From the NCBI RefSeq assembly GCF_945901735.1, contig NZ_CAMDLM010000004.1, positions 1 to 64,000 of the forward strand: 64,000 bases of DNA. Direction: 5' to 3'. Below the pieces are notes generated by a model. That model was not told where the DNA came from. It searched no databases and saw only the letters and a list, made by a program, of their open reading frames with translations. The DNA is from Limnohabitans sp. Rim8. Lineage in GTDB: Bacteria; Pseudomonadota; Gammaproteobacteria; Burkholderiales; Burkholderiaceae_C. Of the stretch, positions 47,345-64,000 are shown piece by piece; positions within the stretch are counted from its first letter, which is position 1, and each line of letters opens with the position of its first letter. The position numbers and the translations under genes were made by a program.

Positions 47345-47422
47345 TACGTAATAACCCGCTTCAACGACTTCTTATTTTTTGGTTAGATACGGGTTCAATT
47401 TTTACACCACGAGTCCAGAGAC

Positions 47423-48424
47423 ATGCAAGATCCCCAATCCCCTCTCATTCCCCGCCGTGATTACCTCAAATGGATGGGCGCGGCTGGCCTGGCGGCTACT
47501 GGCGTCTCGGGCCATGCCCAATCCGCCTGGCCCAGCAAGCCCATTCGCTGGATCATCCCCTTCGCATCTGGCGGGACCTCCAGCATCGTGGCCCGCGGCA
47601 TTGCGGCCCAGCTGACCAAACAATTGGGCGCCTCCTTTGTCATCGACAACAAAGGCGGCGGCGGCGGTGTGCCGGCCATGCAAGAGCTCCACCGCGCCCC
47701 GGCCGACGGCTATACCATCATCATGAGCCACATTGGCCTGATGGCGGTCAACCCCCTCATCTACCCCGACAGCGGTTACGACGTGAACAAGGACTTTGTG
47801 CCCGTGACCCTGCTGTCACGCGTGCCCAGCCTGTTTGTGGTGCACAAAGACGTGCCGGCCACCGACATGAAATCCTTGATTGCCTACGTCAAGTCCCGTC
47901 CGGGTCAGCTTAACTACGCTTCTGCAGGCAACGCCAGCGCGGGCCACTTGGCCATGGAAGCGCTCAAGCTGGCCACCGGGATGTTCATCACCCACATCCC
48001 CTACCGCGGCACAGGCCCCGCCTTGAACGACGTACTTGCGGGGCGTATTCAACTGATGTCCGCAGGTACACCAGCGCTCTTGCCACACATCAAAAGCGGC
48101 GTCCTGCGCTGCATTGCTGTGGGCACCACCGAACGCATCCCGGTTTTGCCAGACGTACCCACGGTGCAGGAGTTGGGCTTCAAGGACTTTGAAACCGTGC
48201 AGTGGTATGGCATCCATGCCCGCGCAGGCACACCGCCAGAAATTCTCTTGAAGCTGCAACAAGAGTGCGCCAAAGCCGTGAAGTCGCCTGAAGTCATGGC
48301 CCAAAACGCCGCCGAAAGCGCCATCCCTGGTGGCGGCCCCTCCAGCGAATACGCCGCCTTTGTGGCCCGTGAACAGGCACGCTGGAAAGAGGTTGTAATC
48401 AAGGCACAGATTCGGCCCGGTTGA
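47423..48424 (+). CDS. Orphan Bug-type periplasmic receptor
   Basis: Bug receptors bind small carboxylates. The 333-residue precursor has a twin-arginine signal (PRRDYLKWMGAAGLAATG) and the Bug features IRWIIPFASGGTSSIVAR near residue 40, FVIDNKGGGGG, and HIPYRGTGPALNDVLAGRIQLM in the middle. It follows tctCBA by 78 bp and may share its permease. It differs from TctC enough to expect another ligand. A strong terminator follows, so it ends the transcription unit. Confidence 0.87.
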   Translation: MQDPQSPLIPRRDYLKWMGAAGLAATGVSGHAQSAWPSKPIRWIIPFASGGTSSIVARGIAAQLTKQLGASFVIDNKGGGGGVPAMQELHRAPADGYTIIMSHIGLMAVNPLIYPDSGYDVNKDFVPVTLLSRVPSLFVVHKDVPATDMKSLIAYVKSRPGQLNYASAGNASAGHLAMEALKLATGMFITHIPYRGTGPALNDVLAGRIQLMSAGTPALLPHIKSGVLRCIAVGTTERIPVLPDVPTVQELGFKDFETVQWYGIHARAGTPPEILLKLQQECAKAVKSPEVMAQNAAESAIPGGGPSSEYAAFVAREQARWKEVVIKAQIRPG

Positions 48425-48564: not shown

Positions 48565-49581
48565 TCAAGACAAGCGTGACCGTTGCTTTTGTACCTCCTG
48601 AAGGAGGGTTTGAGCGGTGGACCGGCGAATGTCGAAACCACTGATCAAATCAGCCCACTGGTCCATCACGCCCAGCATGCCATCGAGCCGCTGAGCGGCC
48701 CAACGCTGATCGAGCCCGCCGGTCTGCGCCAATTGCATCACATGGCTGCGCTGGATGTTCAAACCCTCACCACAAACATCCATCTGGTGCTCACCACCGG
48801 GACCCTGGCTGTACGTCAGGTCAAAACAAGGCGCCAGCTTCCACTGGCGTTGCGCGTCCATGCGGAAAGCCAAATTTTTCGGGTGGTCATCCCGGTTGTG
48901 GAACAGCACATTGAAGACAGCGCGCTCAAACGCTTTTTGTACCTCGCGCTCATCGCGCGTGATCATGCGTGTGGCCCTTAAAAAAGTCGTGTAATCCACT
49001 GCCGAGGGAATTCTGAAGTCGGCGTGCAAGAAACCAGCCAACGAATGAATCGGGACGCGTTGACCTTGCGCCAGATCGAAGCGCTCAATGCCCAGTGCAG
49101 CCTGTTTGGCACTCAAATCAAACACATGCGTGTCGGGCATATCCAAACCGCAAGCTCTGGCCAGTTGTGCATAAAACGCCTCTATGGCACAGACTTCTTT
49201 GTGCTCGCCCATGGCCTGAAACTTGACCATCCAGCCTGCCCCGGCGGTCATGGGTGTTGTGCTGATGCGAGCCGTAGCCGGATCGTAAAACACAAGTACT
49301 TTGGGCCGGGCGCCCTGCGGAGAGCCACCCAACCAGGCCAAGCGTTGCAAAGTTTCGGTCTCTGCGCCCTGCAAGACCAGAGCAGTTTCGTTGGCCAGCG
49401 CCACCAAATCCACCGTGTCGGGCAGGACATCACCCTGTGTGTCAGGCTCGTAGGTGAGCGCACCCATGCCACGGTGGCCAATGAAGCTCAAACGGTCCAG
49501 TGGTGAAACTTGTTCGGGCCGAATTCCTTGCCATTTGAAGCGCTTGTCCATCTGTCTATGGGCCAGTTTCAAAATCTTCAT
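48565..49581 (-). CDS. HipA-like Ser/Thr kinase, N-terminally shortened, without hipB
   Basis: HipA toxins are kinases that phosphorylate a tRNA synthetase and cause persistence; a HipB antitoxin normally precedes them. This 338-residue protein has the HipA core: SPLDRLSFIGHRGMGAL at residues 26-42, the Gly-rich loop GGSPQGARPKVL (85-96), the catalytic HNRDDHPKNLAF (228-239) and the CFDLTYS metal site (252-258). The usual N-terminal 80-100 residues are absent, and a TAA stands in frame two codons before the ATG. No hipB is found. It lies at the edge of the AT-rich island. It may be a remnant or a distinct short subtype. Confidence 0.8.
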   Translation of the reverse strand: MKILKLAHRQMDKRFKWQGIRPEQVSPLDRLSFIGHRGMGALTYEPDTQGDVLPDTVDLVALANETALVLQGAETETLQRLAWLGGSPQGARPKVLVFYDPATARISTTPMTAGAGWMVKFQAMGEHKEVCAIEAFYAQLARACGLDMPDTHVFDLSAKQAALGIERFDLAQGQRVPIHSLAGFLHADFRIPSAVDYTTFLRATRMITRDEREVQKAFERAVFNVLFHNRDDHPKNLAFRMDAQRQWKLAPCFDLTYSQGPGGEHQMDVCGEGLNIQRSHVMQLAQTGGLDQRWAAQRLDGMLGVMDQWADLISGFDIRRSTAQTLLQEVQKQRSRLS

Positions 49582-49734
49582 GGCGGCTTAAGGGTAATCC
49601 CTCAAAGGGATTGCTCCCTATCACATATGCAAATGCTGCTACGCTGAATGTGCAGTTGAGACTTGGAAAACATACACTTATTTCACACCATCGAAGCTTT
49701 TCAGCCTGATGGTTTTTTATGGAAATCTAAGGTG

Positions 49735-50496
49735 ATGGCACGAGCAGTCAAATCAGCTATCCGGGTGCTTGGGGTGTTGGAGTTGTTTGATCGACTTCAA
49801 CGCGAGGCATCGGTCGGCGAAATTGCGCGTGAGTTGGGTTATCCCCTTTCCAGTACATCTATGCTCTTGGCCAACCTGTTAGAGATGGGTTATTTACGAC
49901 ATGGGCCTGATCAACGCACTTATTTTCCAACGCCGCGTGTCACTGCCTTAGGCGCTTGGCTTGAGCCACTGTTGACACCTGGTGCCGAGATCATGCGCAT
50001 GATGTCGGATCTCGGTAATGAAACCGGAGAGACAATTATTTTGGCCGCACCCACGCGAGACCAAGCGCAATACGTTCATGTCGTGCCAGCGACTACAACC
50101 ATGCGAATGCATGTAGGACCAGGAACGATGCGTCCTTTATTGGCCTCAGGACTCGGCAGAGTTTTACTTTCGTCCATGCCACAAGAAAAAATCAATCTTC
50201 TGGTCATGCGCCACAACGATGGTCCTTTTGCCACTGAGGGGCGAATCAGCAACGCGGCATTGCAACGCGAATTGGCAGCCATCCGCATCAAGGGTTATGC
50301 CGTTGTATTGCGTGGCGTGACACCAGGTGCCGGACTCATTGGAATGCCACTGCCACTCGAGTTGAGTGGCCTTCCATTAGCGCTCGGTATTGGCGGATGG
50401 GCCAAAGAGATTCGTTCGAGGCAACAAGAATATTTGCAATTAATGCGTGATGCCATAGACCGACATCTTCGTCGCGACTTACGCTCAGCCTCTTGA
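49735..50496 (+). CDS. IclR-family transcriptional regulator
   Basis: IclR proteins sense small organic acids and control catabolic operons. The 253-residue protein has a winged HTH (about residues 1-65, with ASVGEIARELGYPLSSTSMLL as recognition region) and a C-terminal IclR effector domain (GETIILAAPTRDQAQYVHVV, and MRPLLASGLGRVLLS). The ATG at 49735 is preferred since the HTH starts directly with ARAVKSAIRVLGVLELF; a TTG at 49663 would add 24 unconserved residues. It leads the island genes and lies 10 bp before the iron alcohol dehydrogenase, so it likely controls the whole set. Confidence 0.88.
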   Translation: MARAVKSAIRVLGVLELFDRLQREASVGEIARELGYPLSSTSMLLANLLEMGYLRHGPDQRTYFPTPRVTALGAWLEPLLTPGAEIMRMMSDLGNETGETIILAAPTRDQAQYVHVVPATTTMRMHVGPGTMRPLLASGLGRVLLSSMPQEKINLLVMRHNDGPFATEGRISNAALQRELAAIRIKGYAVVLRGVTPGAGLIGMPLPLELSGLPLALGIGGWAKEIRSRQQEYLQLMRDAIDRHLRRDLRSAS

Positions 50497-50506
50497 AAGT
50501 AATGTA

Positions 50507-51685
50507 ATGGCCATACCACAAGCTTTTCAATTTCAGACTTCAAGGTCGATGGTTATTTCGGATATTGGATGTCTCTCTAAAATTGATGCCTGCATACAAA
50601 CCATGGGCAGCGATCGTGTGATGTTGATCTCAAGTCAACGTGCTTCACAAGGAATTGCTGCTCGCACGGTAGTTAAAGTGCTAGGCAAAAAAATTGCATG
50701 CCAATATACAAAAGTAACTCAACACTCGGGAGTTGACATCATCGAAGAAATTGTGAAGTTGGCTCAACTTCACAAGATCGATGGATTCGTTTCAGTAGGC
50801 GGCGGAAGTTGTTCAGACAGCGCTAAAGCGGCGGCTATTTTGCTGGCGGAAGGGGGAAAGTTAAAAGACCATGCCAATGTTTTTTATCCTCCCGATCGAT
50901 ATGTGCAACAGCATTTAATTCACCCCAAACTTCCAATCATTGCTATTCCACTGAGTCTTTCTGCTGCAGAGGTAACGCCTGGTTTGGGCATCCGCGATCC
51001 TCATGGACACAAGTTGGTTTTTTGGGATCCATTGGTAGTTCCACGCTTCATTTTGCTGGACGGAGAATCGTGCACTGATGTACCTGCTGAAATTTTCACA
51101 ACAACAGGGATGAATGCATTGGCTCATTGCATTGAGGGCATGTATTCGAAAGTTAGAAATCCTATTTCTGAGGCGCTTGCTGTTCAAGGAATTGCCTATT
51201 TAAAAGAAGCCTTGCCTCGAATTCAAACTTCACCGCAAGACAAAGATGCACGGAACTTGGGACTCATTGGTGCTTACTTGAGTGGTATGGTCATTAGCAA
51301 TGCGCGTGTAGGCATTCACCACGGCATTTGTCATGGCCTGGGTGCATTGGGCGGTTTATCACACGGCGTGGCTAATTCTGTTTTCTTGCCACATGCCATG
51401 CGATTTAATTTGGATGCGGCCACAGACTATTTGGCCAAGGTTGCAACGGCAATGGGTGTGGACACACACCAACTTTCAACAAAAGAAGCAGCGCTTCAAG
51501 CGATCACTGCCGTTGAAAAATTGCAATTGACATTGGGTATACCTCAAGGACTCAAAGAAGCAGGATTGGATCGATCCTTGATTCCACAACTGGCCAAAAA
51601 TGCCATGTCCGATCGGGGGTTGTATTTCAACCCCCGATTAGCCACCGAATCAGAAGTGATGCAATTGTTGGAGGCCGCTTGGTAA
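50507..51685 (+). CDS. Iron-containing alcohol dehydrogenase, maleylacetate reductase-like
   Basis: The 392-residue protein belongs to the group III metal-dependent dehydrogenases. The nucleotide loop is GGGSCSDSAKAAA, and the metal-binding part includes FILLDGESCTDVP, TTGMNALAHCIEGMYS and GIHHGICHGLGAL. The GIHHGICHGLG histidine cluster is the form seen in maleylacetate reductases, so it may reduce an unsaturated oxo acid, but aldehyde or hydroxy-acid substrates are equally possible. The stop overlaps the TTG start of the MeaB gene, giving coupled translation. Confidence 0.85.
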   Translation: MAIPQAFQFQTSRSMVISDIGCLSKIDACIQTMGSDRVMLISSQRASQGIAARTVVKVLGKKIACQYTKVTQHSGVDIIEEIVKLAQLHKIDGFVSVGGGSCSDSAKAAAILLAEGGKLKDHANVFYPPDRYVQQHLIHPKLPIIAIPLSLSAAEVTPGLGIRDPHGHKLVFWDPLVVPRFILLDGESCTDVPAEIFTTTGMNALAHCIEGMYSKVRNPISEALAVQGIAYLKEALPRIQTSPQDKDARNLGLIGAYLSGMVISNARVGIHHGICHGLGALGGLSHGVANSVFLPHAMRFNLDAATDYLAKVATAMGVDTHQLSTKEAALQAITAVEKLQLTLGIPQGLKEAGLDRSLIPQLAKNAMSDRGLYFNPRLATESEVMQLLEAAW

Positions 51686-52743
51686 CCACTGAAGTTCATC
51701 GTTTAATTGCTGATATGCAAAGCGGGAAAATTCGTGCTTTGTCCAGAGCTATATCGTGGGTTGAATCACAAACGCCACAATCGAGTGAGCTTTTAGAAAA
51801 AGTATATGCCCTCGCCAAAGCGCCTTGGGTGATCGGCATCACCGGTGTCGGTGGTGCTGGAAAAAGTTCGCTCGTACCCCACATGGCCAAATACTTTGCC
51901 AATCAAGGCCATCGTGTTGCAGTGCTGGCAGTCGATCCCTCAAGTCCGATCAGTGGTGGTGCTTTATTGGGAGACCGCATTCGAGACAATGGCGGACAAC
52001 AGCACCCGAATATATTTTTCCGCAGTGTAGCTTCGCGTGGCGGTCAAGGTGGACTTGCTACTTGCGTTTCAGACCTCACGCGCGTGGTCAGTACAGCAGG
52101 CTTTGATATTGTGTTGATTGAAACCGTTGGGGCGGGGCAGTCAGAGTTGGCTATTTTGAATGTTGCCCACACCATTGTGCTGATTCATGCCCCAGGCTTA
52201 GGAGACGATATTCAAGCTCAAAAAGCAGGTGTCATGGAAATAGCTGACGTGCTGATCGTGAACAAAGCCGACAAGCCTGGGGCTGATGATGCTGTACTGA
52301 TGCTACAGCAAGCCTTGTTACTTTCTGAAAAAAATGCACACATGCATGAGGGCTTGAACCAATTCACAAATCTGCAAGCCCACTGGCATCCACCCGTGGT
52401 TTCAACAATCGCTATTGAGGGCAAAGGGATTGTTCAAGCATGTGAACAATTGCAAGCACATTTTGCCTTTATGCAATTGGATGGAGGTTACGAAAAACGC
52501 AACCATGTCCATGTGATGAAACGCATGAACGATTACATAAAGCAATTGGTATTGGAACGTCTTGCGCATCAAATCCAAGCACCAGCAGTAAAAATAAGAA
52601 TGGAAAAAGAGTTAATAAGTGACAGGCACGATCCACTGGGAACAGCCCGTGAATTGGCTGATGCTTTTTTCCCGTCGCAAGCGACACATTCGGAGTTTTC
52701 TCAACTGTTACGTCAATCATCTCAAAAGGAAATTGCACCATGA
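51679..52743 (+). CDS. MeaB/ArgK-type GTPase chaperone of the acyl-CoA mutase
   Basis: MeaB-family GTPases load adenosylcobalamin onto acyl-CoA mutases and protect them from inactivation. The 354-residue protein has the P-loop GVGGAGKSS (residues 56-64), AVDPSSPISGGALLGDRIR, the VASRGGQGGL switch region, ETVGAGQSE and the NKAD specificity motif. The proposed start is a TTG at 51679, preceded by GGAGG at short distance and overlapping the upstream gene; the next ATG would remove conserved sequence. The stop overlaps the first Bug gene (ATGA). Confidence 0.93.
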   Translation: MVTTEVHRLIADMQSGKIRALSRAISWVESQTPQSSELLEKVYALAKAPWVIGITGVGGAGKSSLVPHMAKYFANQGHRVAVLAVDPSSPISGGALLGDRIRDNGGQQHPNIFFRSVASRGGQGGLATCVSDLTRVVSTAGFDIVLIETVGAGQSELAILNVAHTIVLIHAPGLGDDIQAQKAGVMEIADVLIVNKADKPGADDAVLMLQQALLLSEKNAHMHEGLNQFTNLQAHWHPPVVSTIAIEGKGIVQACEQLQAHFAFMQLDGGYEKRNHVHVMKRMNDYIKQLVLERLAHQIQAPAVKIRMEKELISDRHDPLGTARELADAFFPSQATHSEFSQLLRQSSQKEIAP

Positions 52744-53732
52744 ACTTCAATCAGCAATCCCAAAAGCTTGTACGTGTTTGGGGATCTATTTTTCTGGGTC
52801 TGCTTTTAAGCTTTACCAGCCTATTGAGTTTTGCGCAGGCCAATTACCCCAATCGACCGGTTCGCATCATTGTTCCATTTTCAGCAGGATCTGGAACTGA
52901 TATTTTGGCGCGTTTGGTGGCTGAGCGATTGACCAAAAGTTTGGGCCAATCGTTTGTGGTTGAAAACAAGCAAGGTGCCGATGGCATTTTGGGTACCGAT
53001 CAGATTGCCAAATCTGCACCTGATGGGTATATCTTGGGCATGGTTCCATCTAGCCCCATTGTGATGAATCCTGCTTTGTACAAATTACCATTTGATCCCA
53101 TCAAAGATTTGATACCAGTGGTTGTGATGGCTAATTTGAGTTGTGTCTTAGGCGTTCAGCCTAATTTACCCATTAAAAATGTACAAGAGTTAATTGCCTA
53201 TGCTAAGGCCAATCCCGACAAACTCAACTATGCTGCAGGTTCAACATTTACACATTTGGCCGGTGAAATGTTTAAATTCATCGGAGGTGTCAACATGACG
53301 GCTATTCCATACAAAGGAACGGCACCACAAGTAACCGCATTTTTAGGCAACGAGATTGAAGTCATTTTCGATCCGTTTTTAGCTGTTCAACACATCAAAA
53401 ATGGAAGAATTCGTCCTTTGGCCGTAACCGCTGCTAAACGATCGAGTGTTTTCCCAGACTTGCCTACACTGCAAGAAGCAGGGTTCAAGGATTATGTGGT
53501 TGAAACTTGGGTTGCCATGTTTGCGCCACCCGGTACACCCAAAGCCATTGTTGACTTGTTGCACTCGGAAGTGAACAAGATTACCGGTTCACCTGAAGTG
53601 CGTGCACGATTGGCGGACATGTCTTACGACCCCATCATTGAATCGCAAGAACAATTTACAAAACGAATTGCAGCTGACACTGCTCGATGGGCAAAAACAG
53701 TAAAAGATTCGAAGTTTCAAGTAACGAAATAA
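52740..53732 (+). CDS. Bug-type periplasmic receptor (island copy 1)
   Basis: The 330-residue precursor has a hydrophobic signal peptide (about residues 12-30, ending FAQA) and the Bug fold: VRIIVPFSAGSGTDILARLVAE, VVENKQGADGILGTDQ, and AIPYKGTAPQVTAFLGNEIEV. Its place inside the mutase operon suggests it captures the pathway's growth substrate or a close relative, but no TctA or TctB permease is encoded in the island. The protein might work with TctAB from 45.3-47.3 kb. It is followed 9 bp later by a second receptor. Confidence 0.88.
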   Translation: MNFNQQSQKLVRVWGSIFLGLLLSFTSLLSFAQANYPNRPVRIIVPFSAGSGTDILARLVAERLTKSLGQSFVVENKQGADGILGTDQIAKSAPDGYILGMVPSSPIVMNPALYKLPFDPIKDLIPVVVMANLSCVLGVQPNLPIKNVQELIAYAKANPDKLNYAAGSTFTHLAGEMFKFIGGVNMTAIPYKGTAPQVTAFLGNEIEVIFDPFLAVQHIKNGRIRPLAVTAAKRSSVFPDLPTLQEAGFKDYVVETWVAMFAPPGTPKAIVDLLHSEVNKITGSPEVRARLADMSYDPIIESQEQFTKRIAADTARWAKTVKDSKFQVTK

Positions 53733-53741
53733 GGAGTTGAC

Positions 53742-54713
53742 ATGAAAAAAATTACAAAGCGCTTGATGTTGGTTAGTGCGATGGCCTGTGCTATTTTGGG
53801 CGCAACAAATTCGTGGGCTCAAGCTTGGCCCAATAAACCCATTCGAATGGTTGTTCCTTTGGCACCTGGTGGCGGCACTGACATCGCTTCTCGCGTTGTC
53901 GCTAATTATTTATCTGAAGCTTTGGGACAACAAGTCATTATTGAAAATAAATTGGGAGCCAACGGTGTTGTGGGCGTAGACTTTGCATCTAAGGCTGCTC
54001 CTGATGGTTATACGATATTGGTTGGTTCAACCACCACCATGGCCGCCAATAATTTCATGTACAAGAATCCTACCGTTGATCCTTTAAAAGATTTTCTACC
54101 TGTCTCAATATTAGGAACAATAGAATTTGCGATGCTGGTTCCTGCCAGTTCTAACTACAATTCTTTGAAAGATTTGATCGGTGCTGCAAAAGCAAATCCA
54201 GGCAAACTCAGCTATGGATTTGGCTCTAGCGCTGCCTTGTTGTGCGGTGAAATGTTCAATGCAGCCGCTGGCATACAAATTGTCAAAGTTCCTTACAAAG
54301 GAACCCCTCAATCCCTGATTGATTTGGCAGCAGATCGGATCCAATTGGTATGCGAACCATTAGGACCAAGCCTTCCTTTGATCAAATCGGGCAAACTTCG
54401 ACCATTAGCGGTAACCAGCGTTAATCGACATGGTCTGGCTCCTGAAGTGCCCACGATGGCAGAAGCCGGTTTACCCATGGAGCACGCCACATGGGCTGGT
54501 TTCTTTGTGCCCGCCAAAACGCCCAAAGAAATTGTGACGAGACTGAGTAATGAAATTGTGAAAATAATGGGTAGAGCCGATGCACAAGAAAAAATTCGTG
54601 AAACTGGCTTTATTCCCCGTCAGATTGGTAGCGATGAATTTGGTGCTGTCCATCGAAATGATTACAGCCGCATGGAAAGAATCATTAAACAAGCTGGAAT
54701 AACTCCGGATTAA
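53742..54713 (+). CDS. Bug-type periplasmic receptor (island copy 2)
   Basis: This 323-residue precursor is a second Bug receptor in tandem, with signal peptide ending near SWAQA and the core segments IRMVVPLAPGGGTDIASRVV, IIENKLGANGVVGVD, and KVPYKGTPQSLIDLAADRIQLV. It is related to, but clearly distinct from, copy 1, which suggests duplication followed by a change of ligand. An AAGGAG site stands before the ATG. The mutase large subunit starts 10 bp after its stop. Confidence 0.88.
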   Translation: MKKITKRLMLVSAMACAILGATNSWAQAWPNKPIRMVVPLAPGGGTDIASRVVANYLSEALGQQVIIENKLGANGVVGVDFASKAAPDGYTILVGSTTTMAANNFMYKNPTVDPLKDFLPVSILGTIEFAMLVPASSNYNSLKDLIGAAKANPGKLSYGFGSSAALLCGEMFNAAAGIQIVKVPYKGTPQSLIDLAADRIQLVCEPLGPSLPLIKSGKLRPLAVTSVNRHGLAPEVPTMAEAGLPMEHATWAGFFVPAKTPKEIVTRLSNEIVKIMGRADAQEKIRETGFIPRQIGSDEFGAVHRNDYSRMERIIKQAGITPD

Positions 54714-54723
54714 GGCTCTGAAC

Positions 54724-56403
54724 ATGTCGACTTCCTCTAAATCGCTCCCGCAGACATACGATCATTGGCTATCAGAGCACTCCCAAGATCTACAAAACTC
54801 TCGAAAGAAATCGTTTGAAAGTTCAAGCGGTATTCCCGTTGATACGCTGTATACCCCTGAGCATTTGCAAAAATCGGGTTGGGACTATCAGCGTGACGTA
54901 GGCTATCCAGGTCAAGCGCCTTATACGCGCGGCTTCACACCAGGGGGCTATCGCCAACACCTTTGGAAAATGGAGATGTATGCTGGATTTGGTTCTGCTG
55001 AAGAAGCCAATGAGCGCTATCGCTATTTGATGTCGCAGGGCAGTACAGGCGGCATTTCAATTGCACTCGATTTGCCAACTCAAGTTGGGTATGACTCGGA
55101 CCATTTGATGGCCAGGGATGAAGTGGGTCAAATTGGTGTTGCTTTAACCTCATTGGACGATGTAGAGCGAGTGTTTGATGGCATACCGCTTGATCAGGTT
55201 GGACATATTTTTTCAACCGCTAATTGCATTGGTCCTATTGTTTGTGCATGGTTGTTGGCACTCTATGAAAAGCGAGGTACACCTACTGCTGACTGTATTG
55301 TTCAATTGCAAAATGATCCGATCAAAGAGTACATAGCCCGCGGCACACAATTTTTACCTATTGAATCGGCAGTGAAATTAACCACTGACATGATCGAGTA
55401 TTGTCGAACCGCTGCACCAGAATGGTTGCCTATTTCCATTTCCGGCTCTCACATGAAGCAAGCTGGTGCAACGTGCGTGCAAGAAGCAGCCTTCACCATT
55501 TGCAATGGCATTACATATGTAGAGAGCTGTTTGGCGCGCGGCATGAAGATCGATGACTTTGGCCATGTGATCGAATTGCATTTTTGCACCGAAATGGATT
55601 TCTTTGAAGAAGTTGCCAAATACCGTGCAGTTCGAAAAGTCTGGGCCAGATTGGTACGTGAGCGTTTTGGAGGCACTACGGCCAAGGCACAACACTTTCG
55701 ATTGCATGCGGCAACATCTGGCCGACCATTGACAGCGCAACAACCACTGAACAACATTGCGCGCATTACTTTACAAGCACTCGCACAAATCTTAGGTGGT
55801 TGTGAGCAAACTCGAACCGCCTCTTTTGACGAAGCGCTGGGTATACCCACGCAAGAAGCAGCACGCACATCCATCAGGGCCAATCAAATCATTGCATTTG
55901 AAACAGGAATTCCAGACACAGTCGACCCTTTGGGTGGTTCTTATTATTTAGAAAACCTCACGATTGAATACGAAAAACGGATTGACGCCATCATTGCTCA
56001 GGTTGACAAGATGGGGGGGTCATTGGTCGCTGTAAAAGATGGCTTCTTCCAACGCGCATTGGCCCAAGGTGCATACCGAGAGCAGTGCGCCGTGGAAAGT
56101 GGCGAACAAGTGGTTGTGGGTGTCAATCGTTTTCAATCAGAAGAAGGGCAACCTGTACCGACTTTCAAAGTTGATCCTGGCGCGGCCGAAAGGCAAATTG
56201 CAAAACTTAAACAAGTGCGCGCAAGCAGAGATGCTGATGCAGTTGCCAAAGGATTGCAACGCTTAAAGGAAGATTGCCTGGCAAAGCGCAACATCATGCC
56301 TGCCACATTGGAGTGTGTAAAAGCCTATGCAACCATAGGTGAAATCGCAGACGTGTGGCGCGAAGTTTTTGGTGTTTATGTTCCTGAATCGGTGAGGTTT
56401 TAA
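54724..56403 (+). CDS. Adenosylcobalamin-dependent acyl-CoA mutase, large subunit
   Basis: The enzyme moves a CoA-carboxyl (or related) group between adjacent carbons by a radical mechanism. The 559-residue protein is a stand-alone substrate domain; the B12 domain is a separate gene. By alignment to methylmalonyl-CoA mutase, Tyr86, Gln196, Arg206 and His243 occupy the places of Tyr89, Gln197, Arg207 and His244. Arg206 should hold a carboxylate, which argues against a 2-hydroxyisobutyryl- or isobutyryl-type enzyme (they have Gln there). Unusual points: RGFTPGGY (69-76) replaces RGPYATMY in the CoA channel, and Ser242 replaces the tyrosine before the catalytic histidine. The substrate is unknown; a substituted malonyl/succinyl-CoA pair is my best guess. 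Confidence 0.9.
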   Translation: MSTSSKSLPQTYDHWLSEHSQDLQNSRKKSFESSSGIPVDTLYTPEHLQKSGWDYQRDVGYPGQAPYTRGFTPGGYRQHLWKMEMYAGFGSAEEANERYRYLMSQGSTGGISIALDLPTQVGYDSDHLMARDEVGQIGVALTSLDDVERVFDGIPLDQVGHIFSTANCIGPIVCAWLLALYEKRGTPTADCIVQLQNDPIKEYIARGTQFLPIESAVKLTTDMIEYCRTAAPEWLPISISGSHMKQAGATCVQEAAFTICNGITYVESCLARGMKIDDFGHVIELHFCTEMDFFEEVAKYRAVRKVWARLVRERFGGTTAKAQHFRLHAATSGRPLTAQQPLNNIARITLQALAQILGGCEQTRTASFDEALGIPTQEAARTSIRANQIIAFETGIPDTVDPLGGSYYLENLTIEYEKRIDAIIAQVDKMGGSLVAVKDGFFQRALAQGAYREQCAVESGEQVVVGVNRFQSEEGQPVPTFKVDPGAAERQIAKLKQVRASRDADAVAKGLQRLKEDCLAKRNIMPATLECVKAYATIGEIADVWREVFGVYVPESVRF

Positions 56404-56846
56404 TGACGAACAAACAAGCAGCAGTTGGTCAGCGGCCAATTCGAGTGGTCCTGACAAAAGTAGGACTGGATGGTCATGATCGTGGCGTGAAAGTCATTGC
56501 GCAGGCCTTACGAGATGCAGGCATGGAAGTGATCTATGCTGGTCTTCGCAGAACACCTGAAGAAATTGCACGCATTGTTTTGGAAGAAGATGCGGACGTT
56601 TTAGGCCTCTCCATTTTGTCGGGCGCTGTGGTGCCTTTGACACGCCGTGTCGTTGAAGCCTTGAAGGCTCAACAATTAGAAGATGTTGTGCTGGTCGTGG
56701 GTGGCATTGTTCCTGAACCATCGCGCTTGGAACTCAATGGCATGGGCGTTACTGGTATTTTTACACCTGGCTCAAGTCTCAAAGCAATCATTGATTTTAT
56801 TCAAGCTGGCGTAGCCAACCATCGCACCTACCAGGAGTCAAAATGA
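56403..56846 (+). CDS. Adenosylcobalamin-dependent acyl-CoA mutase, B12-binding subunit
   Basis: This 147-residue protein binds the cofactor. It has the DGHDRG motif with the lower axial ligand His25, the LGLSILSGAVVPL segment and VVGGIVPEPSRLELNGMGV, followed by IFTPGSSL, all expected in mutase C-terminal domains. The ATG overlaps the large-subunit stop by one base (TAATG). Together the two subunits make a heteromeric mutase like Hcm or Icm types in architecture. Confidence 0.94.
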   Translation: MTNKQAAVGQRPIRVVLTKVGLDGHDRGVKVIAQALRDAGMEVIYAGLRRTPEEIARIVLEEDADVLGLSILSGAVVPLTRRVVEALKAQQLEDVVLVVGGIVPEPSRLELNGMGVTGIFTPGSSLKAIIDFIQAGVANHRTYQESK

Positions 56847-58000
56847 AAGGTCATGATGTTTTTATCAATGGCGTGGGCTATCACCCCTTTGGGCGGTTTC
56901 CAGAAAAAACGCTCAAGACCTTGGCAGCCACAGCTGCCCTTTCGGCTTTGGACGATGCACAAATTCAGGTCAAAGATATACAAGCTGCCTTTTGCGCCAA
57001 TGCCTATGCAGGTTTACTCAATGGACAAGAGTCCATTCGTGGCGAAACTTGGTTAAGGGGCATTGGTTTGGGCGGTGTGCCCATCATGAATGTTGAAAAC
57101 GCATGCGCCAGTGGTTCCACTGCGGTTCACATGGCTTGCATGGCTATCGCCAGTGGCAACTACGACACCGTGTTGGTCGTGGGTGCCGAAAAAATGTTTG
57201 TCGGCGATACAAGCCGCACATTGGCAGCACTTGCCAATTCTGCCGATACCGAAGTGATGAGCAATATTGGATTGCAATTTTCTGCGTTAGATGCCATTCG
57301 CGTGCGTGAAATGATGGCAGAAGAGACTTTGGGCGAAGATGATTTCGCTTGGGTCACCGTTAAAAATCACGACCATGCTTTGAGCAATCCGATAGCCCAA
57401 TACCGCAAACCATTGACCATCGAACAAGTTCAAACATCGCGCATGATTGCAGACCCCATTCGGTTGCTCATGTGCAGTGCCATTTCTGATGGCGCTGCCG
57501 CATTGGTGCTCTCACGCAAACCATCACGCGGTGGCGTTCGCGTGCGTGCGAGCGCCATGGCTTCATCACCTTGGCGACTCACACCTGACAGCACGCCTGG
57601 CCCCACAGTGGCGGCCAACAAAGCTTATGACCAAGCCTCTGTGGGTCCTCAAGACTTGGATTTGGTCGAGGTACATGATGCAGTTTCACCAGCAGAATTG
57701 ATGCATTACAGAGAATTGGGTTTGTGCGCGCACGGTGATGTTGGCAAATTTGTTGCAGAAAAAGCCAGTGCCATTGGTGGAAGATTACCCGTCAACACCA
57801 GCGGTGGCTTAAATTCTCGTGGACACCCTGTAGGTGCAACAGGCGTAGCGCAATTAATTGAATTGACTTTGCAGTTGAGAGGTGATGCAGGCGCTCGACA
57901 AGTACAAGGTGCACGCATAGCCATGGCTCACAACTCAGGTGGATGGATTGATCAAGATCCGGCTGTTAGCAGCATTCACATCTTAGAAAAAACCACATAA
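56843..58000 (+). CDS. SCP2-type thiolase or thiolase-like aldolase
   Basis: The 385-residue protein belongs to the nondecarboxylating, SCP2-like thiolases. Cys88 in NACASGS is the nucleophile; EVHDAVSPAE, SRGHPVGATG with the active-site His, and AHNSGGW follow. The last motif lacks the second catalytic cysteine of classical thiolases, as in other SCP2-type and DUF35-dependent enzymes. The next gene encodes a DUF35 protein. Such pairs include benzoylsuccinyl-CoA thiolase (BbsAB) and steroid aldolases. The enzyme here is likely to cleave a branched 3-oxo- or 3-hydroxyacyl-CoA. It overlaps the upstream gene by four bases. Confidence 0.87.
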   Translation: MKGHDVFINGVGYHPFGRFPEKTLKTLAATAALSALDDAQIQVKDIQAAFCANAYAGLLNGQESIRGETWLRGIGLGGVPIMNVENACASGSTAVHMACMAIASGNYDTVLVVGAEKMFVGDTSRTLAALANSADTEVMSNIGLQFSALDAIRVREMMAEETLGEDDFAWVTVKNHDHALSNPIAQYRKPLTIEQVQTSRMIADPIRLLMCSAISDGAAALVLSRKPSRGGVRVRASAMASSPWRLTPDSTPGPTVAANKAYDQASVGPQDLDLVEVHDAVSPAELMHYRELGLCAHGDVGKFVAEKASAIGGRLPVNTSGGLNSRGHPVGATGVAQLIELTLQLRGDAGARQVQGARIAMAHNSGGWIDQDPAVSSIHILEKTT

Positions 58001-58009
58001 AGATCGATC

Positions 58010-58396
58010 ATGGAAAAAACCAATCCTTCCCTGTTCTTTGTCGAAGGCGAAGCTCCCGGCGCGCCAGGGCTCAAAGGCTCACATTGCCCTGAATGTCAAC
58101 AAATTGTGTTGTTAGAAGTGGCTGCTTGCCCCAAATGCGGCTATCGCGAATTAGAGACTGTTTGTATAGGACAAAAAGCAACACTGGGGCAATCTTCTGA
58201 GGTTCTACATTCCACCGAGGGGTTTGAAGCGCCGTATTTCATTGGACAAATTGAAACTGCTGAGGGCCCGCATACCTTTGCGCCATTGGATGTCAAACCA
58301 GGCACACAACTCCGTGTTGGCATGCCCTTGACATTCAAACTTCATCATCGAGCCGATGGCCGGGTTGGATTTATCTACGCAGTTGGATTGGAATAA
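58010..58396 (+). CDS. DUF35 zinc-ribbon/OB-fold protein
   Basis: The 128-residue protein has an N-terminal zinc ribbon (CPEC and CPKC in residues 25-45) and a C-terminal OB-fold. DUF35 proteins form complexes with thiolase-fold enzymes and are needed for their activity in steroid and benzylsuccinate degradation. It lies 9 bp after the thiolase gene and should be its partner. Four bases later comes the CoA ligase. Confidence 0.9.
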   Translation: MEKTNPSLFFVEGEAPGAPGLKGSHCPECQQIVLLEVAACPKCGYRELETVCIGQKATLGQSSEVLHSTEGFEAPYFIGQIETAEGPHTFAPLDVKPGTQLRVGMPLTFKLHHRADGRVGFIYAVGLE

Positions 58397-58400
58397 TAGA

Positions 58401-59957
58401 ATGAATGTTGCCGATCAGCTGTACAAGTCAGCTTTACTCTATAAAGATAATATAGCTGCCAGATGTGATGATGAAACGATGACTTATGCTCAATTGGATG
58501 AGCAAAGCAATCGCTTGGCAAATGCACTTTTAGCAAATGGCCTTCATCAAGGCGATCGGGTGGCCACTTGGATTGAGAATTCGATTCGATGTATAGAAAT
58601 TGATTTTGCCCTTGCCAAGGCTGGGCTCGTTCGAGTATCTCTCAATCCAAAATTAACCCCACGAGAGGCTGCTTATATTTTTCAAGACAGCGATGCCAAA
58701 TGCATCATCTATGGTGCTTCATTTGATCAAGCCATCATAGAGTCTACTCAAGAGACGCCACTCGTACAAATCAAAATTCGTGCAAAAGAAACGAGCCCTA
58801 CCGATTTAGAAGGCAGCCATAATTATGAAAGCTTTCTAAATTCAGCTGAATCACACGCCCCTGGCATTATTGTTGATGGCGAAGATATTTATTGTTTTTT
58901 TTACACATCAGGTACAACGGGAAAACCTAAGGGCGTGATGCTCTCGCATCGATCCATTCTTCAAACTTCATTTAATTTATTGATGGAGTTGGGCCCTATT
59001 GCAGCAAATGAAAAAATATTATTGATGCAACCCTTGAGCCATGGCGCAGGATTTTTTGTGTTGCCACAATACATGAAGGGAGGATGCTGCATCATCATGC
59101 GTCATTTTGATCCTGTTCAATTGATTGATTTGGCAATCAAATATCAAGTGGAAGTGATTAAATTAATTCCCACGATGCTTCAAAGAATTTTATTGTTGCC
59201 AGATGCCAAGAAAATAAAATTACCCCATCTGCGGTACATGATATACGGCGCAAGCCCAATGCCCAACGAACCGCTCAAGTCAGCGATTGAAATTTTTGGT
59301 CCCAACAAGTTGGTTCAAATTTATGGCCAAAGTGAATGTCCAGTCACTTTGACCATTCTTCCAAGCGAAGAACACATAGCCAATCCACCTTTTCCGCAAC
59401 GCCTGCTTTCAGCAGGGCGCCCTTGGGCACCTGTTGAAATGCGGATCGTCGATGATCACATGAAGGATGTAGAAAAGGGTGGTATCGGTGAGTTGGCTTT
59501 GAAAGGACCTCACATGATGTCGGGGTATTGGAAGCGCGATGATTTGACTCAAGAAACGATCCAAAATGGGTGGCTCAAGACCAAAGACATGGGTCGAATT
59601 GATGAGCATGGATTTGTCTATTTGCTGGGTAGAAAAGATGAGATGATCATCAGTGGCGGCTACAACATAGCCCCCAGAGAAGTAGAAGATATCCTTTATC
59701 AATTCCCAGGCGTTGAGCAAGCCGCCGTGATTGGCGAAGCTGATCTTGAGTGGGGTCAGGCGGTCGTCGCGTATGTGGTGATGAACAAGGCCCATCTAGG
59801 CCATGCCAAAAATCTAATGGATTTCGGTCGTCAAGAACTGGGATTTAAAAAACCAAAGCGTATTTATATCGTCGTTGAGTTGCCAAAAAATGCAGCAGGG
59901 AAAATACAAAAAATAGCATTGAAACCCAGCATGGCTTTAGAGCAAATTGGACAATAA
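58401..59957 (+). CDS. Acyl-CoA synthetase (AMP-forming CoA ligase)
   Basis: The 518-residue protein activates a carboxylic acid with ATP and CoA. It has the P-loop YTSGTTGKPKGVM, the adenine motif YGQSECP, the hinge motif LGRKDEMIISGGYNIAPREVE and the C-terminal Lys in NAAGKIQKIAL that catalyses adenylation. The ATG at 58401 gives the usual start; a longer frame would overlap the DUF35 gene. It probably performs the first intracellular step of the pathway. Substrate residues in the acid pocket cannot be assigned by eye. Confidence 0.93.
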   Translation: MNVADQLYKSALLYKDNIAARCDDETMTYAQLDEQSNRLANALLANGLHQGDRVATWIENSIRCIEIDFALAKAGLVRVSLNPKLTPREAAYIFQDSDAKCIIYGASFDQAIIESTQETPLVQIKIRAKETSPTDLEGSHNYESFLNSAESHAPGIIVDGEDIYCFFYTSGTTGKPKGVMLSHRSILQTSFNLLMELGPIAANEKILLMQPLSHGAGFFVLPQYMKGGCCIIMRHFDPVQLIDLAIKYQVEVIKLIPTMLQRILLLPDAKKIKLPHLRYMIYGASPMPNEPLKSAIEIFGPNKLVQIYGQSECPVTLTILPSEEHIANPPFPQRLLSAGRPWAPVEMRIVDDHMKDVEKGGIGELALKGPHMMSGYWKRDDLTQETIQNGWLKTKDMGRIDEHGFVYLLGRKDEMIISGGYNIAPREVEDILYQFPGVEQAAVIGEADLEWGQAVVAYVVMNKAHLGHAKNLMDFGRQELGFKKPKRIYIVVELPKNAAGKIQKIALKPSMALEQIGQ

Positions 59958-59965
59958 GGTAGATT

Positions 59966-61279
59966 ATGCGCGACGAACTCGGAAGTTTTGTAACCCATGT
60001 GTCTTGGAAAAATTTAAACCAAGAAGCCAAAGACAAATTGTTATTGTGTTTGTTGGCCAATTTGTCAGTCGCTGTTGCTGGCTCAAGTGCCATGCGACTG
60101 CCAAAACCGCCATTACAAAAAGGACATCTTTTGCTCGATGGTGGAGAAACATCGAGTGCCCGAGAGGCCGCTTTTTACAACGCTGCATTGATGCATGCGC
60201 GAACACAGGACGATTTTCATCCGATTGGCAATTTACACATCGCGACCATTGTCATTCCTGCAATTTTTGCGCAAGCAGAACGATTGGCCTCTAGCGGTGA
60301 AGCATTTTTGGACGCGCTTGCAGCCTCATACGCCACTTCTGCTGGTCTGTCGCGCCAATTTTCACCTGTGACAACCCCAAGAGGTTTGCGCTCAACGAGT
60401 TTGTATGCCTGTATGGGCGCCGCCGTGGGTGTGGAACGATTGAAAGGCAACGATCCATTGGCCATTGCGAATACGCTGGGGTTGGCAACGCAAACCAGTT
60501 TTGGTACGACACAGTGTTGGCCTGATGGCAGTGATGAATATCAATTCCATGTCGCCAATGCAGCGAGTCAAGCCCTGTTGTGTTCTGATTTAACGCAGGC
60601 CAAAGTTTTATCGGGCAAAAGTGCTTTAGATGGACCTTATGGATTTTATTCGGCACTGATGGGTCTCAGGCCATCATTTGAATCCATCAAAAATGATTTT
60701 GAACCCAATGCTGCCATTGTAGAAACCGTACTCAAGCGATACCCAGTCAGTGGCATTTGCCAACCGGTGGTCAGATTGTCTGAACAACTGGCGTTGCAAG
60801 TCAAGGACCAAGAAATTGATAAAATTTTACTGGAAATGAATGCGTTTGAGATGAATTATCCAGGCACTCTCAAAGAAGGACCCGTATTTCATTCTTTCTC
60901 TGACAAGTTGATGAGTGCGCGGTATTGTTTAAGTTCCGTTCTTGCAGAAGGGCGGTTTAACTTTGATGCATTCTTTAGCAGCCATTATGCAAAACTGGTA
61001 CCCATAATGGCGCAGACCCATGTTATTTCTGCTTCAGATTTAGGTACGCTCAGTTGTCGCATTTCCATTCACTTGAAAAATGGCGAAATCATTCGAGATG
61101 AGTTGAAAAATGGAGGCGCTCAGCTGGCCATTAACTGGTCAAGTATTGATGAATGGGCTCGTGATTTATGGATGAGTGGAGGACGAACACCTTCCTCTTA
61201 TTCCAAAACAAGAGACGTTATTCTTGACTTGCATAACCTGCAATTGAGTGATTTAAAAAAATCCCTGTCATTAGAATAA
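59966..61279 (+). CDS. MmgE/PrpD-family protein
   Basis: Members of this family include 2-methylcitrate dehydratase, cis-aconitate decarboxylase and epimerases of iminodisuccinate. The 437-residue protein has the family N-terminal helical domain with NAALMHARTQDDFHPIGNLH (where most members have HxxDFDDT) and TTPRGLRSTSLYACMGAAVG, followed by a C-terminal alpha/beta domain. The changed segment makes prediction of the reaction unsafe. It begins 8 bp after the ligase. It is the last gene before a 196-bp gap. Confidence 0.8.
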   Translation: MRDELGSFVTHVSWKNLNQEAKDKLLLCLLANLSVAVAGSSAMRLPKPPLQKGHLLLDGGETSSAREAAFYNAALMHARTQDDFHPIGNLHIATIVIPAIFAQAERLASSGEAFLDALAASYATSAGLSRQFSPVTTPRGLRSTSLYACMGAAVGVERLKGNDPLAIANTLGLATQTSFGTTQCWPDGSDEYQFHVANAASQALLCSDLTQAKVLSGKSALDGPYGFYSALMGLRPSFESIKNDFEPNAAIVETVLKRYPVSGICQPVVRLSEQLALQVKDQEIDKILLEMNAFEMNYPGTLKEGPVFHSFSDKLMSARYCLSSVLAEGRFNFDAFFSSHYAKLVPIMAQTHVISASDLGTLSCRISIHLKNGEIIRDELKNGGAQLAINWSSIDEWARDLWMSGGRTPSSYSKTRDVILDLHNLQLSDLKKSLSLE

Positions 61280-61475
61280 ATTTTTTAGCTGACTTATCCC
61301 GTTGATTTTTTTATTCTGATAGGGACTGTTGCATGATATTCAAGAAAACCAAAATTTCCATCGCCTTGGAATTTTATTATCAATACTCAATCATCAACGC
61401 TGGCAACGAAATAATTTGAATTTCTTGGAATTTTAGCCATACATTAGATACTATCAAATAATCTCAATTCAAATC
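61280..61475. promoter_or_regulatory. Intergenic gap with repeated TTGGAATTTTA motifs
   Basis: This is the largest gap within the island. It contains a 12-bp direct repeat CTTGGAATTTTA at 61365-61376 and 61424-61435, and an imperfect palindrome AAAATTTCCA-tcgcct-TGGAATTTT at 61351-61375. The AT content suggests a promoter. It may be a second control point, for the downstream dehydrogenase genes, and possibly bound by the IclR protein. Confidence 0.4.
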
Positions 61476-62633
61476 ATGAATAATCTCTTAGATAATTTTC
61501 AATTGGCACGGTTGCCCCAAAGCTCCGATGCATTGCGAATTGAAGTCAAGCAATTTTTAAATGAAGCGATGCCAACACTCTCTGCCGACCGAAGGGCAAG
61601 GTCATGGTTTGGCTTCGATCCTGAATTCAGCCAACGATTGGCCGAGAGAGGATGGGTGGGCCTCACTCTTCCTAAGACTTATGGCGGCGCTGAGCTGGAT
61701 GCATTTTCACGGTTTGTTTTGGTTGAAGAATTGCTTTGCGCGGGCTCGCCAGTCGCAGCACATTGGATTGCCGATCGACAAAGTGGGCCACTCATTTTTA
61801 AATACGGAACAGAAAAACAAAAGTCTTTCTATTTACCTTTGATTTGCCAAGCCAAAGCATTTTTCTGCATCGGTATGAGTGAACCCAATTCGGGTTCTGA
61901 TCTTTCATCCGTGGCCACTCGTGCTGTCAAAACCGATCAAGGATGGCGTCTCAACGGTCAAAAAATCTGGACCACTAACGGACACCAGTGCCACTTTGCA
62001 ATTGCATTGGTTCGCACATCCGGCACAAGCGCTGATCGTCATGCTGGTCTGTCGCAATTTATTATTGACCTCTCCTTACCAGGTGTGACTCGAAAACCCA
62101 TTGTCGACCTAACGGGTGACCAGCATTTTTCTGAAATATTTTTTGAAAATGTGATGTTGAATGAAGATGCTTTGATTGGTGTTGAAGGTCAGGGCTGGGA
62201 TCAAGTGATTGCAGAATTGGCATTTGAGCGAAGCGGCCCAGAACGTGTTTATTCCAGCATTGTTTTGCTTGATGAGTGGATCAAATGGCTCAAACAAGGA
62301 CGGGCCACTCCGCAGCGCATTGCCATGGTAGGGAGATTCACTGTGCACCTCAGCACTTTGCGAAATATGTCGATTGCCGTCACTCACCAATTGGTGGAAG
62401 ACAAAAGTCCAGTGATTGAAGCGGCCCTTGTCAAAGACATTGCCACCGAGTTCGAACAACATATTCCGGCATTGTTAGAAGATGAAATGGGGTCAGATCC
62501 AAATGAGATCATTGATCCCAACTTGCTCCGCGCATTGGCTTATGTGAGTCAAATGGCTCCAACTTATTCCTTGCGCGGCGGCACTCGTGAAATATTGCGT
62601 GGCATGATTGCCCGTGGATTGGGTCTCAGATGA
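61476..62633 (+). CDS. Acyl-CoA dehydrogenase, larger subunit of a coupled pair
   Basis: The 385-residue protein has a full acyl-CoA dehydrogenase fold: GWVGLTLPKTYGG, the FAD-binding CIGMSEPNSGSDLSSVAT and KIWTTNGHQ, and the end SLRGGTREILRGMIARGLGLR. The end lacks the classical catalytic YEGT Glu; a possible base is the Glu in ELAFERSGPER (about residue 250), as in isovaleryl-CoA-type enzymes. Overlap with the next, weaker dehydrogenase suggests a heteromer like the alpha2-beta2 steroid enzymes. No clear ribosome-binding site precedes the ATG. Confidence 0.85.
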   Translation: MNNLLDNFQLARLPQSSDALRIEVKQFLNEAMPTLSADRRARSWFGFDPEFSQRLAERGWVGLTLPKTYGGAELDAFSRFVLVEELLCAGSPVAAHWIADRQSGPLIFKYGTEKQKSFYLPLICQAKAFFCIGMSEPNSGSDLSSVATRAVKTDQGWRLNGQKIWTTNGHQCHFAIALVRTSGTSADRHAGLSQFIIDLSLPGVTRKPIVDLTGDQHFSEIFFENVMLNEDALIGVEGQGWDQVIAELAFERSGPERVYSSIVLLDEWIKWLKQGRATPQRIAMVGRFTVHLSTLRNMSIAVTHQLVEDKSPVIEAALVKDIATEFEQHIPALLEDEMGSDPNEIIDPNLLRALAYVSQMAPTYSLRGGTREILRGMIARGLGLR

Positions 62634-63631
62634 CGAATATTTTTGTAGAAGCACTTGAACCGATACTGGCTCACCATTGCAAGACATCCGATGTACGCCG
62701 AATTGAATCCAATGATTCTGGTCATTCTCTTTTTGAAAAAATTTCTGATGCTGGTTTTTTTGAATTATTGACCGATGAATCTGATGGAGGTGCTGGCATC
62801 AGCACTCGAGATTTATTTCCAATACTACTTTTACTGGGTCAATATGCAGTTCCACTTCCGATTGCCCAGACGATTGCCGCGCGTTGGTTATGGAAAAACC
62901 ATGCGAGCATTCCAAATGGATTGATTGCTTTCGCACCTCATCACACGGTCAAGGATGAGTTGTTGATTTGCGCCAACATCCCCATGGGTAGAGTTAGCCA
63001 ATTCTTTGTTATTCAGGATCGACTCGGCTACAAAATTTTAAATTGCGCTGATGCAATCAATATTTATGACAGTGGAATTCATGGAAGTTTATTGGCAACT
63101 TTGAATTGGGAAAGCCATGCGGGTCAATTTTTTGATATCAAAAATTCGCCTACAGATCTCATGTCATTGTCGGCATCATTAAAAGCCGTCGAATTGGCTG
63201 CATCCATCAAAAAAGTTTTTGATATGACGCTTCAATACGCCAACGATCGAGTTCAATTTGGAAAATCAATTGGCAAATTTCAAGCCATTCAACATCAGCT
63301 CAGCGTGATGGCTGAACATGTCGCTGCAGCAAGCATCGCCGTGCAAGCGGCATTTGATATTGAGACTGGGCCGCCTTCACGCATGCTGAGCGCGATTGCA
63401 AAATCAAGAACGAGTGAATCGGCACAGCTGATAGCAGCAACAGCGCATGCTGTTCATGGTGCCATTGGCATTACATACGAATATGACTTGCAAATTTATA
63501 CCCGTAGACTTCACCATGCCCGCATGGCCTATGGATCCGAGTCTTATTGGAATCAATGGATTGGAGAGCAAGTGTTAGCAAGCCCATCAACTCAACTGTC
63601 CGATTTCATTCAAATGACCTCTCAGCCATGA
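62630..63631 (+). CDS. Acyl-CoA dehydrogenase, smaller subunit of a coupled pair
   Basis: This 333-residue dehydrogenase-fold protein is divergent from the norm. The N-terminal domain is recognisable (DAGFFELLTDESDGGAGIS), the middle FAD-binding motifs are poor, and the C-terminal domain keeps NDRVQFGKSIGKFQAIQHQL and GAIGITYEYDLQIYTRRL. No catalytic Glu is evident. It overlaps its partner and the following aldolase gene by four bases each. It most likely supplies structure or half an active site in a heteromer. Confidence 0.83.
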   Translation: MTNIFVEALEPILAHHCKTSDVRRIESNDSGHSLFEKISDAGFFELLTDESDGGAGISTRDLFPILLLLGQYAVPLPIAQTIAARWLWKNHASIPNGLIAFAPHHTVKDELLICANIPMGRVSQFFVIQDRLGYKILNCADAINIYDSGIHGSLLATLNWESHAGQFFDIKNSPTDLMSLSASLKAVELAASIKKVFDMTLQYANDRVQFGKSIGKFQAIQHQLSVMAEHVAAASIAVQAAFDIETGPPSRMLSAIAKSRTSESAQLIAATAHAVHGAIGITYEYDLQIYTRRLHHARMAYGSESYWNQWIGEQVLASPSTQLSDFIQMTSQP

Positions 63632-64000
63632 CCAAAACAACACAGACGCCCAATCCGCTTTGGGAAAAGTTGAAGAACGGCGAACGTGGCATCGGAACAT
63701 TTGTTTTTTCGTCTGACCCCTGCCATACAGAAATTATTCGCCACGCGGGCTTTGATTTGGTCGTCATAGACATGGAACATGCACCCCTGGAAATAGGCGA
63801 TGTTGCAGCACATGTTCGTGCTGCAAACGCAACGGGTATTTCATGTTGGGCTCGCGTGGGACACGCACAACCACAGCAGATGGGAAGATTGCTTGATCAA
63901 GGCGTACACGGAATTGTGCTGCCACATTTCGGTTTGGACATGACCCGCACGCAAGAAGTATTGAAAGCATTTCGATACGCTCCCAGTGGCACGCGCGGAA
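63628..64000 (+). CDS. HpcH/HpaI-type aldolase (N-terminal part)
   Basis: Only 124 codons are present before the window ends. The visible part has GERGIGTFVFSSDPCHTEIIRHAGFDLVVIDMEHAP, in which the Asp-Met-Glu-His stretch matches the metal/acid motif of HpcH/HpaI class II aldolases, then WARVGHAQPQQMGRLLDQGVHGIVLPHF. Such enzymes split 4-hydroxy-2-oxo acids to pyruvate and an aldehyde, or act on CoA esters (citramalyl-CoA lyase-like). The start overlaps the upstream stop (ATGA). Confidence 0.87.
   Translation, partial: MTKTTQTPNPLWEKLKNGERGIGTFVFSSDPCHTEIIRHAGFDLVVIDMEHAPLEIGDVAAHVRAANATGISCWARVGHAQPQQMGRLLDQGVHGIVLPHFGLDMTRTQEVLKAFRYAPSGTRG

Follow-up and report, generated by a model that had tools for sequence, protein, structure and literature searches.

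In this study, we report an inserted catabolic operon near the end of a 64,000-nucleotide stretch of DNA from Limnohabitans sp. Rim8 (contig NZ_CAMDLM010000004.1, positions 1 to 64,000; hereafter the window). We propose, at a probability of about 0.4, that this operon, the core of which is common to other bacteria, degrades a branched polycarboxylic acid by way of an adenosylcobalamin-dependent mutase whose predicted substrate binding dispenses with the coenzyme A (CoA) contacts of known mutases. Judged from their sequences, the mutase large subunit (MutL) and the MmgE/PrpD-type protein are both atypical of their families. The folds are known, the mutase subfamily is distinct and the gene combination is undescribed; acid breakdown by the cluster may proceed by a rearrangement that is new. 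A preliminary description of this DNA had seen no described counterpart, and this stands within the limits of the open-licence literature, where the accessible portions of the texts searched, PMC11599936, PMC10481361 and PMC11814083 included, hold no description of this operon.

MutL carries the PF01642 domain and is modelled confidently with the fold of methylmalonyl-CoA mutase (MCM), HCM being its best solved relative; two further genes of the PF01642 family lie on other contigs of the Rim8 genome. The homologue comparison used 120 listed matches, reaching down to 68% identity, of 7,982 above threshold; they include mutases of 82-84% identity from Ramlibacter sp. G-1-2-2 and Hydrogenophaga sp. 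BPS33. Residues E84, Y86, A114, Q196, R206, S242, H243, E284, H286, E361, Q362, R364 and A366 are present in 120/120 of the matches listed, and H328 and A330 in 119/120. Seven reference mutases were aligned with the subfamily: human MCM, HCM, an HCM-like protein of a Xanthobacter plasmid, one protein each from Acetoanaerobium and Halopenitus, and the MCM-like and IcmF-like proteins of Rim8, the last of which aligns poorly in places; locus L027, a cut match, was excluded from mutase comparisons. Within residues 66-439, 104 columns are conserved in both the subfamily and the references. The same residue is found in 75 of these and a switched one in 29 (including R to E at 84, Y to S at 242, Q to A at 330 and Q to E at 361), which sets MutL apart from the acyl-CoA mutases (MCM, ICM, HCM) in their shared conserved barrel residues. 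Nine of the 29 switched columns fall on the eight modelled barrel strands, compared with six of the 75 kept ones (one-sided Fisher p 0.005, the test having been chosen after the alignment had been seen), and six of the eight strands are affected in the model. Columns 79 and 282, aligned to Arg82 and Arg283 of MCM, which we take to be CoA (phosphate) contacts, vary freely within the subfamily. To our knowledge, the CoA channel is largely the same across the known mutases with this fold, their main differences lying near the acyl group, a picture with which the column comparison is in line. The switched columns, the invariance of the new residues, the excess on barrel strands and the freedom of columns 79 and 282 together indicate that the part of MutL surrounding the CoA arm in known mutases has been exchanged as a whole and that its new version is strongly selected.

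Residues matching those for carboxylate and radical handling are retained. By the MCM numbering that we assume, Y86, R206, Q196 and H243 of MutL stand at the places of Tyr89, Arg207, Gln197 and His244, whereas Arg87, Tyr243, Gln330 and Gln361 are replaced by E, S, A and E, and the stretch S-L-H-T-N reads Q-T-R-T-A. Since Y86 and R206 match the Tyr89/Arg207 pair, which presumably grips the carboxylate in MCM, a free carboxylate would be expected on the substrate. The idea that the large subunit is a non-catalytic relative with a lost substrate site finds some footing in the many conserved residues that are gone, but MutL keeps the counterparts of the catalytic residues, its new residues do not vary in 120/120 of the matches listed, and a B12-binding subunit and MeaB accompany it, which makes the idea hardly credible. 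The small subunit (MutS) matches PF02310 and contains K-V-G-L-D-G-H, a form of the K-x-G-x-D-G-H pattern that we take to be the B12-binding motif, and is therefore placed among B12-binding subunits. MeaB scores 296.2 bits against the TIGR00750 cut-off of 240.75 and belongs with the chaperones. An adenosyltransferase gene is present in the Rim8 genome, so that the organism can probably make adenosylcobalamin, whether its cobalamin is imported or its own.

A scan with the mutase alignment, using one genome per species, identified 23 loci, of which 14 carry a mutase at 68-96% identity, two at 54-57% and seven at 40-45%. The preliminary description had called for a synteny search with both mutase subunits as bait; the gene combination recurs, whole or in part, at 14 further loci whose mutase has an identity of at least 68%, which makes it a conserved pathway. 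Counted with misses and cut contigs included, the partners at these close loci are mutS (14/14), the ligase (14/14, one partial), thiolase (13/14), duf35 (12/14), mmge and meaB (11/14 each), iclR and adhFe (8/14 each), both dehydrogenase subunits (6/14) and an aldolase (5/14). The aldolase is the least constant member, four of its five copies being at 32-42% identity. Two Bug-type receptors precede mutL in betaproteobacterial loci; judged by eye from translations, L015 carries a receptor of ABC type, and L017 an apparent TRAP transporter together with two receptors. The parts of the operon stand in a different order in L016 (Actinomycetes), and L022 (Rokubacteria, mutase 57%) has the ligase, mmge, thiolase, duf35 and mutL. 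Carriers are uncommon in our samples: under strict settings, Rim8 was the only one among 399 family, 398 phylum and 399 order genomes. In a phylogenetic tree, the subfamily groups with two other non-canonical groups (L021/L023; and L024, L025, L026 and L028 with a second L023 copy) with support 100/99, separate from MCM and HCM, at a point where the program warns that long branches meet.

The alignment of the MmgE/PrpD protein comprised 11 copies, from Rim8, nine of the 14 close loci and L022. Its N-terminal domain alone is recognised (PF03972, E 4.5e-30), the C-terminal domain being unrecognised, and its best match among solved structures is weak (E 1.3e-8). In all 11 copies an invariant Arg is followed by T-Q-D-D, compared with D-F-D-D in iminodisuccinate epimerase and in the family member at L026. 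For Bacillus subtilis IRG1, active-site roles of D91, H102, H151, K200, K266 and C271 are described in the accessible part of PMC7347537. The equivalents of His102 and Lys266 are kept in 11/11 copies, whereas those of Asp91, His151, Lys200 and Cys271 are replaced in 11/11, so that the Rim8 protein shares the N-terminal domain of cis-aconitate decarboxylase and iminodisuccinate epimerase but lacks much of that active site. The His151 position by itself says little, as the L026 family member likewise has no equivalent. An undescribed reaction and pathway are indicated by the mutase subfamily, which spans betaproteobacteria to Actinomycetes, appears to have exchanged its CoA channel as a whole and sits in a conserved operon with an MmgE/PrpD protein that has changed in a comparable way.

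A variant of the 2-hydroxyisobutyrate pathway (HcmAB, or RcmAB with a specific ligase) was also considered. The HcmAB cluster of Aquincola, with a similar set on the Xanthobacter plasmid, has in common with Rim8 a two-subunit mutase of the same fold, a MeaB-type chaperone and a ligase, and HCM is the nearest solved structure. Identity to HCM, however, is only about 40%, and the 29 otherwise shared columns differ. The Ile and Asp that we take to be the HCM substrate-pocket pair, seen as I and D in 4r3u (columns 86 and 114), are Y86 and A114 in MutL, and Y86 rules out an HCM-type pocket. The Rim8 operon has a different regulator and adds MmgE/PrpD, thiolase/DUF35, dehydrogenases and receptors; in these genes it is unlike the hcm cluster on the Xanthobacter plasmid and that described in the accessible part of PMC7176365. 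We regard this explanation as very improbable.

In the mechanism that we favour, the two receptors would deliver the acid to a tripartite permease, MeaB would load the mutase, and the mutase and the MmgE/PrpD protein would act early, on the imported free acid. The ligase would then form the CoA ester, the dehydrogenase pair would introduce a double bond, a hydratase coded elsewhere would hydrate that bond, and the iron-containing alcohol dehydrogenase (Fe-ADH) would oxidise a hydroxyl group; the thiolase/DUF35 pair would cleave a branched 3-oxoacyl-CoA, and the aldolase may process a side product. Uptake, CoA activation, rearrangement, dehydrogenation and cleavage had all been suggested in the preliminary description, and this scheme fits the gene families, with the reservation that the aldolase is the member least often retained. 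The stronger proposal, that an adenosylcobalamin mutase of the MCM fold has abandoned CoA altogether, its barrel refilled with an invariant acidic and basic network, and rearranges a free carboxylic acid, is a tentative reading of the sequences and on balance unlikely. If true, such a CoA-free enzyme would define a new class among the B12 carbon-skeleton mutases and a new breakdown route for branched polycarboxylates. The subfamily makes it directly testable how substrate class changes in B12 radical enzymes.

Several points weigh against early action on a free acid. Among the seven references only human MCM and HCM are characterised, the others being assigned by similarity, and the CoA-contact roles of the switched residues are ones that we presume. 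A free-acid substrate would need an unsaturated or otherwise activated migrating group, and none is evident from the genes. In L014 the ligase gene directly follows mutS and the thiolase pair is absent. A hydratase gene adjoins the operon in L006, L007 and L017 but not in the Rim8 island; the best match to it elsewhere in the Rim8 genome is 62% identical. The many CoA enzymes in the operon also make a CoA ester the simpler biochemical guess for the mutase substrate. A mutase step that follows the ligase and uses a CoA ester, as known pathways do, with the pantetheine arm bound by a new set of residues, is almost as likely as early free-acid action. The ligase and several acyl-CoA enzymes share the operon, the fold of MutL is that of the CoA mutases, and Q196 and H328 are retained; an unusual acyl group, for instance that of a bulky or charged branched dicarboxylic mono-CoA ester, would account for the new residues. 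Yet switched columns on six of eight strands and unconstrained positions at the presumed phosphate contacts exceed a change of acyl pocket, and most of these columns are unchanged in HCM and IcmF although their substrates differ.

Thiolysis of a branched 3-oxoacyl-CoA by the thiolase/DUF35 pair is an expectation by analogy, since both proteins score far under the BbsAB family cut-offs and other thiolase models score higher. The pair resembles the benzoylsuccinyl-CoA thiolase BbsAB, a thiolase with a small DUF35 partner, and BbsB is the best solved match of the thiolase (E 7.6e-60). Against the NCBIfam equivalog models, however, the thiolase reaches 227 bits for BbsB (cut-off 750), with six other thiolase models scoring higher, and the DUF35 protein 44.5 bits for BbsA, its sole match (cut-off 250). 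This resemblance to enzymes that handle benzoylsuccinyl-CoA, and the suitability of Y86 and R206 for a dicarboxylate, would agree with a route in which an aryl- or alkylsuccinate is degraded by way of an intermediate resembling benzylmalonyl-CoA, as happens when indoleacetate is broken down anaerobically (IaaGH, IaaF); there, too, acid breakdown is centred on a mutase (benzylmalonyl-CoA mutase IaaGH). Compared by gene content, the Rim8 operon differs in having MmgE/PrpD, Fe-ADH and a dehydrogenase pair, and no CoA-transferase family is found among its proteins, whereas the iaa cluster encodes the CoA-transferase IaaL, according to the accessible part of PMC8360864; we consider this route improbable.

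Acquisition of the segment finds support in a same-genus genome, where the site is empty, and in a relative of low GC (guanine plus cytosine). At locus L038 of genome G809, the counterparts of our positions 48,411 and 64,610 are separated by about 140 bp, which leaves 16.2 kb extra in Rim8. Thirty genus genomes, this one included, were searched for the two flanking genes; both occur on one contig in nine others, and the segment is present in none of the six of these loci that were compared. The site is variable, G801 having about 3.4 kb of different DNA there. GC of 2-kb windows is 0.44-0.50 from 50,001 on compared with 0.55-0.64 before 48,000, returns to 0.64 from C4:65,000, downstream of the island, and is about 0.60 in the surroundings overall. 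In L006, from a betaproteobacterial metagenome-assembled genome, the DNA matches the island over 11.7 kb at 83% and 3.0 kb at 81% identity, with GC 0.43-0.49 across the 21 kb measured; in that locus the genes for the dehydrogenase pair and the aldolase run divergently and have an enoyl-CoA hydratase gene in between, whereas in the island they come after mmge. Acquisition had been suggested earlier from base composition, and the empty site, L006 and the GC drop bear it out; the operon genes do lie in the segment, which is wider than then described and also includes a HipA-like gene.

Table 1. Genes of the Rim8 operon and extent of the inserted segment
Feature	Coordinates	Strand	Basis and remarks
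IclR-type regulator (iclR)	49663..50496	+	IclR_C, HTH_IclR; alternative ATG start 49,735
Iron-containing alcohol dehydrogenase family (adhFe)	50507..51685	+	Fe-ADH, ADH_Fe_C; alignment
MeaB-type GTPase chaperone (meaB)	51679..52743	+	Pfam MeaB; TIGR00750 above cut-off
Bug/TctC receptor 1	52740..53732	+	TctC
Bug/TctC receptor 2	53742..54713	+	TctC
Mutase large subunit (mutL), switched barrel residues	54724..56403	+	PF01642 (MM_CoA_mutase), E 8.7e-177
B12-binding small subunit (mutS), K-V-G-L-D-G-H motif	56403..56846	+	PF02310; TIGR00640 above cut-off
Thiolase, nearest solved relative BbsB	56843..58000	+	profile match, structure match
DUF35/ChsH2-type zinc-ribbon OB-fold protein (duf35), thiolase partner	58010..58396	+	two Pfam domains just below cut-offs
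AMP-binding acid-CoA ligase	58356..59957	+	AMP-binding; start more likely 58,401
MmgE/PrpD-type protein (mmge), altered active-site positions	59966..61279	+	MmgE_PrpD_N; alignment
Acyl-CoA dehydrogenase subunit 1 (acad1)	61476..62633	+	N-terminal and middle domains recognised
Acyl-CoA dehydrogenase subunit 2 (acad2)	62630..63631	+	C-terminal domain recognised
HpcH/HpaI aldolase (hpch)	63628..64000, cut by window end	+	gene end at contig base 64,428
Inserted segment, 16.2 kb	48412 to about contig base 64,609	.	same-genus empty site; low GC from about 49.6 kb

All 14 operon genes have intact reading frames on the one strand, the end of hpch having been read from contig C4 (135,389 bases) of the same genome. 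Every gene family named in the preliminary description was found, and the tight packing it had noted was confirmed, adjacent frames overlapping or lying at most 10 bases apart with the sole exception of mmge and acad1 (196 bases). A scan for promoters and terminators gave no more matches than shuffled sequence. The likeness of acad1 to pimeloyl-CoA dehydrogenase is only distant. In the alignment, Fe-ADH has Asn at the position of what we take to be a metal-ligand Asp, as we believe is the case in maleylacetate reductases; its solved matches include two chains of that name, with aldehyde-alcohol and methanol dehydrogenases scoring best.

The HipA-like gene (48565-49581, minus strand; 338 residues with a HipA_C domain) lies inside the insertion, between tripartite transporter genes and the operon, and has no match in L006 or L040. 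TctA permease and TctC receptor genes at 45848-48421 end just ahead of the insertion and, as no permease is among the island's 14 genes, could serve its two receptors. Among the more distant loci, the mutases of L024, L025, L026 and L028 (41-45% identity) have T-T-x-x-R-W in place of the Y-H-x-x-E of known mutases, and thus no His matching MCM His244; thiolase genes are nearby in L024 and L026. L018 is labelled Bacteroidales but has proteobacteria-like genes, its TRAP transporter and operon resembling those of L017; it may be a misbinned contig. In L022 (3241-4599 and 11739-12677), an AtuA-family gene is found near the mutase and a 3-hydroxyisobutyrate-dehydrogenase-like gene directly after mutL. 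In L023 (9499-13573), the large subunits of two distinct non-canonical mutases, accompanied by small subunits, are encoded back to back in divergent orientation, and a thiolase gene is close by.
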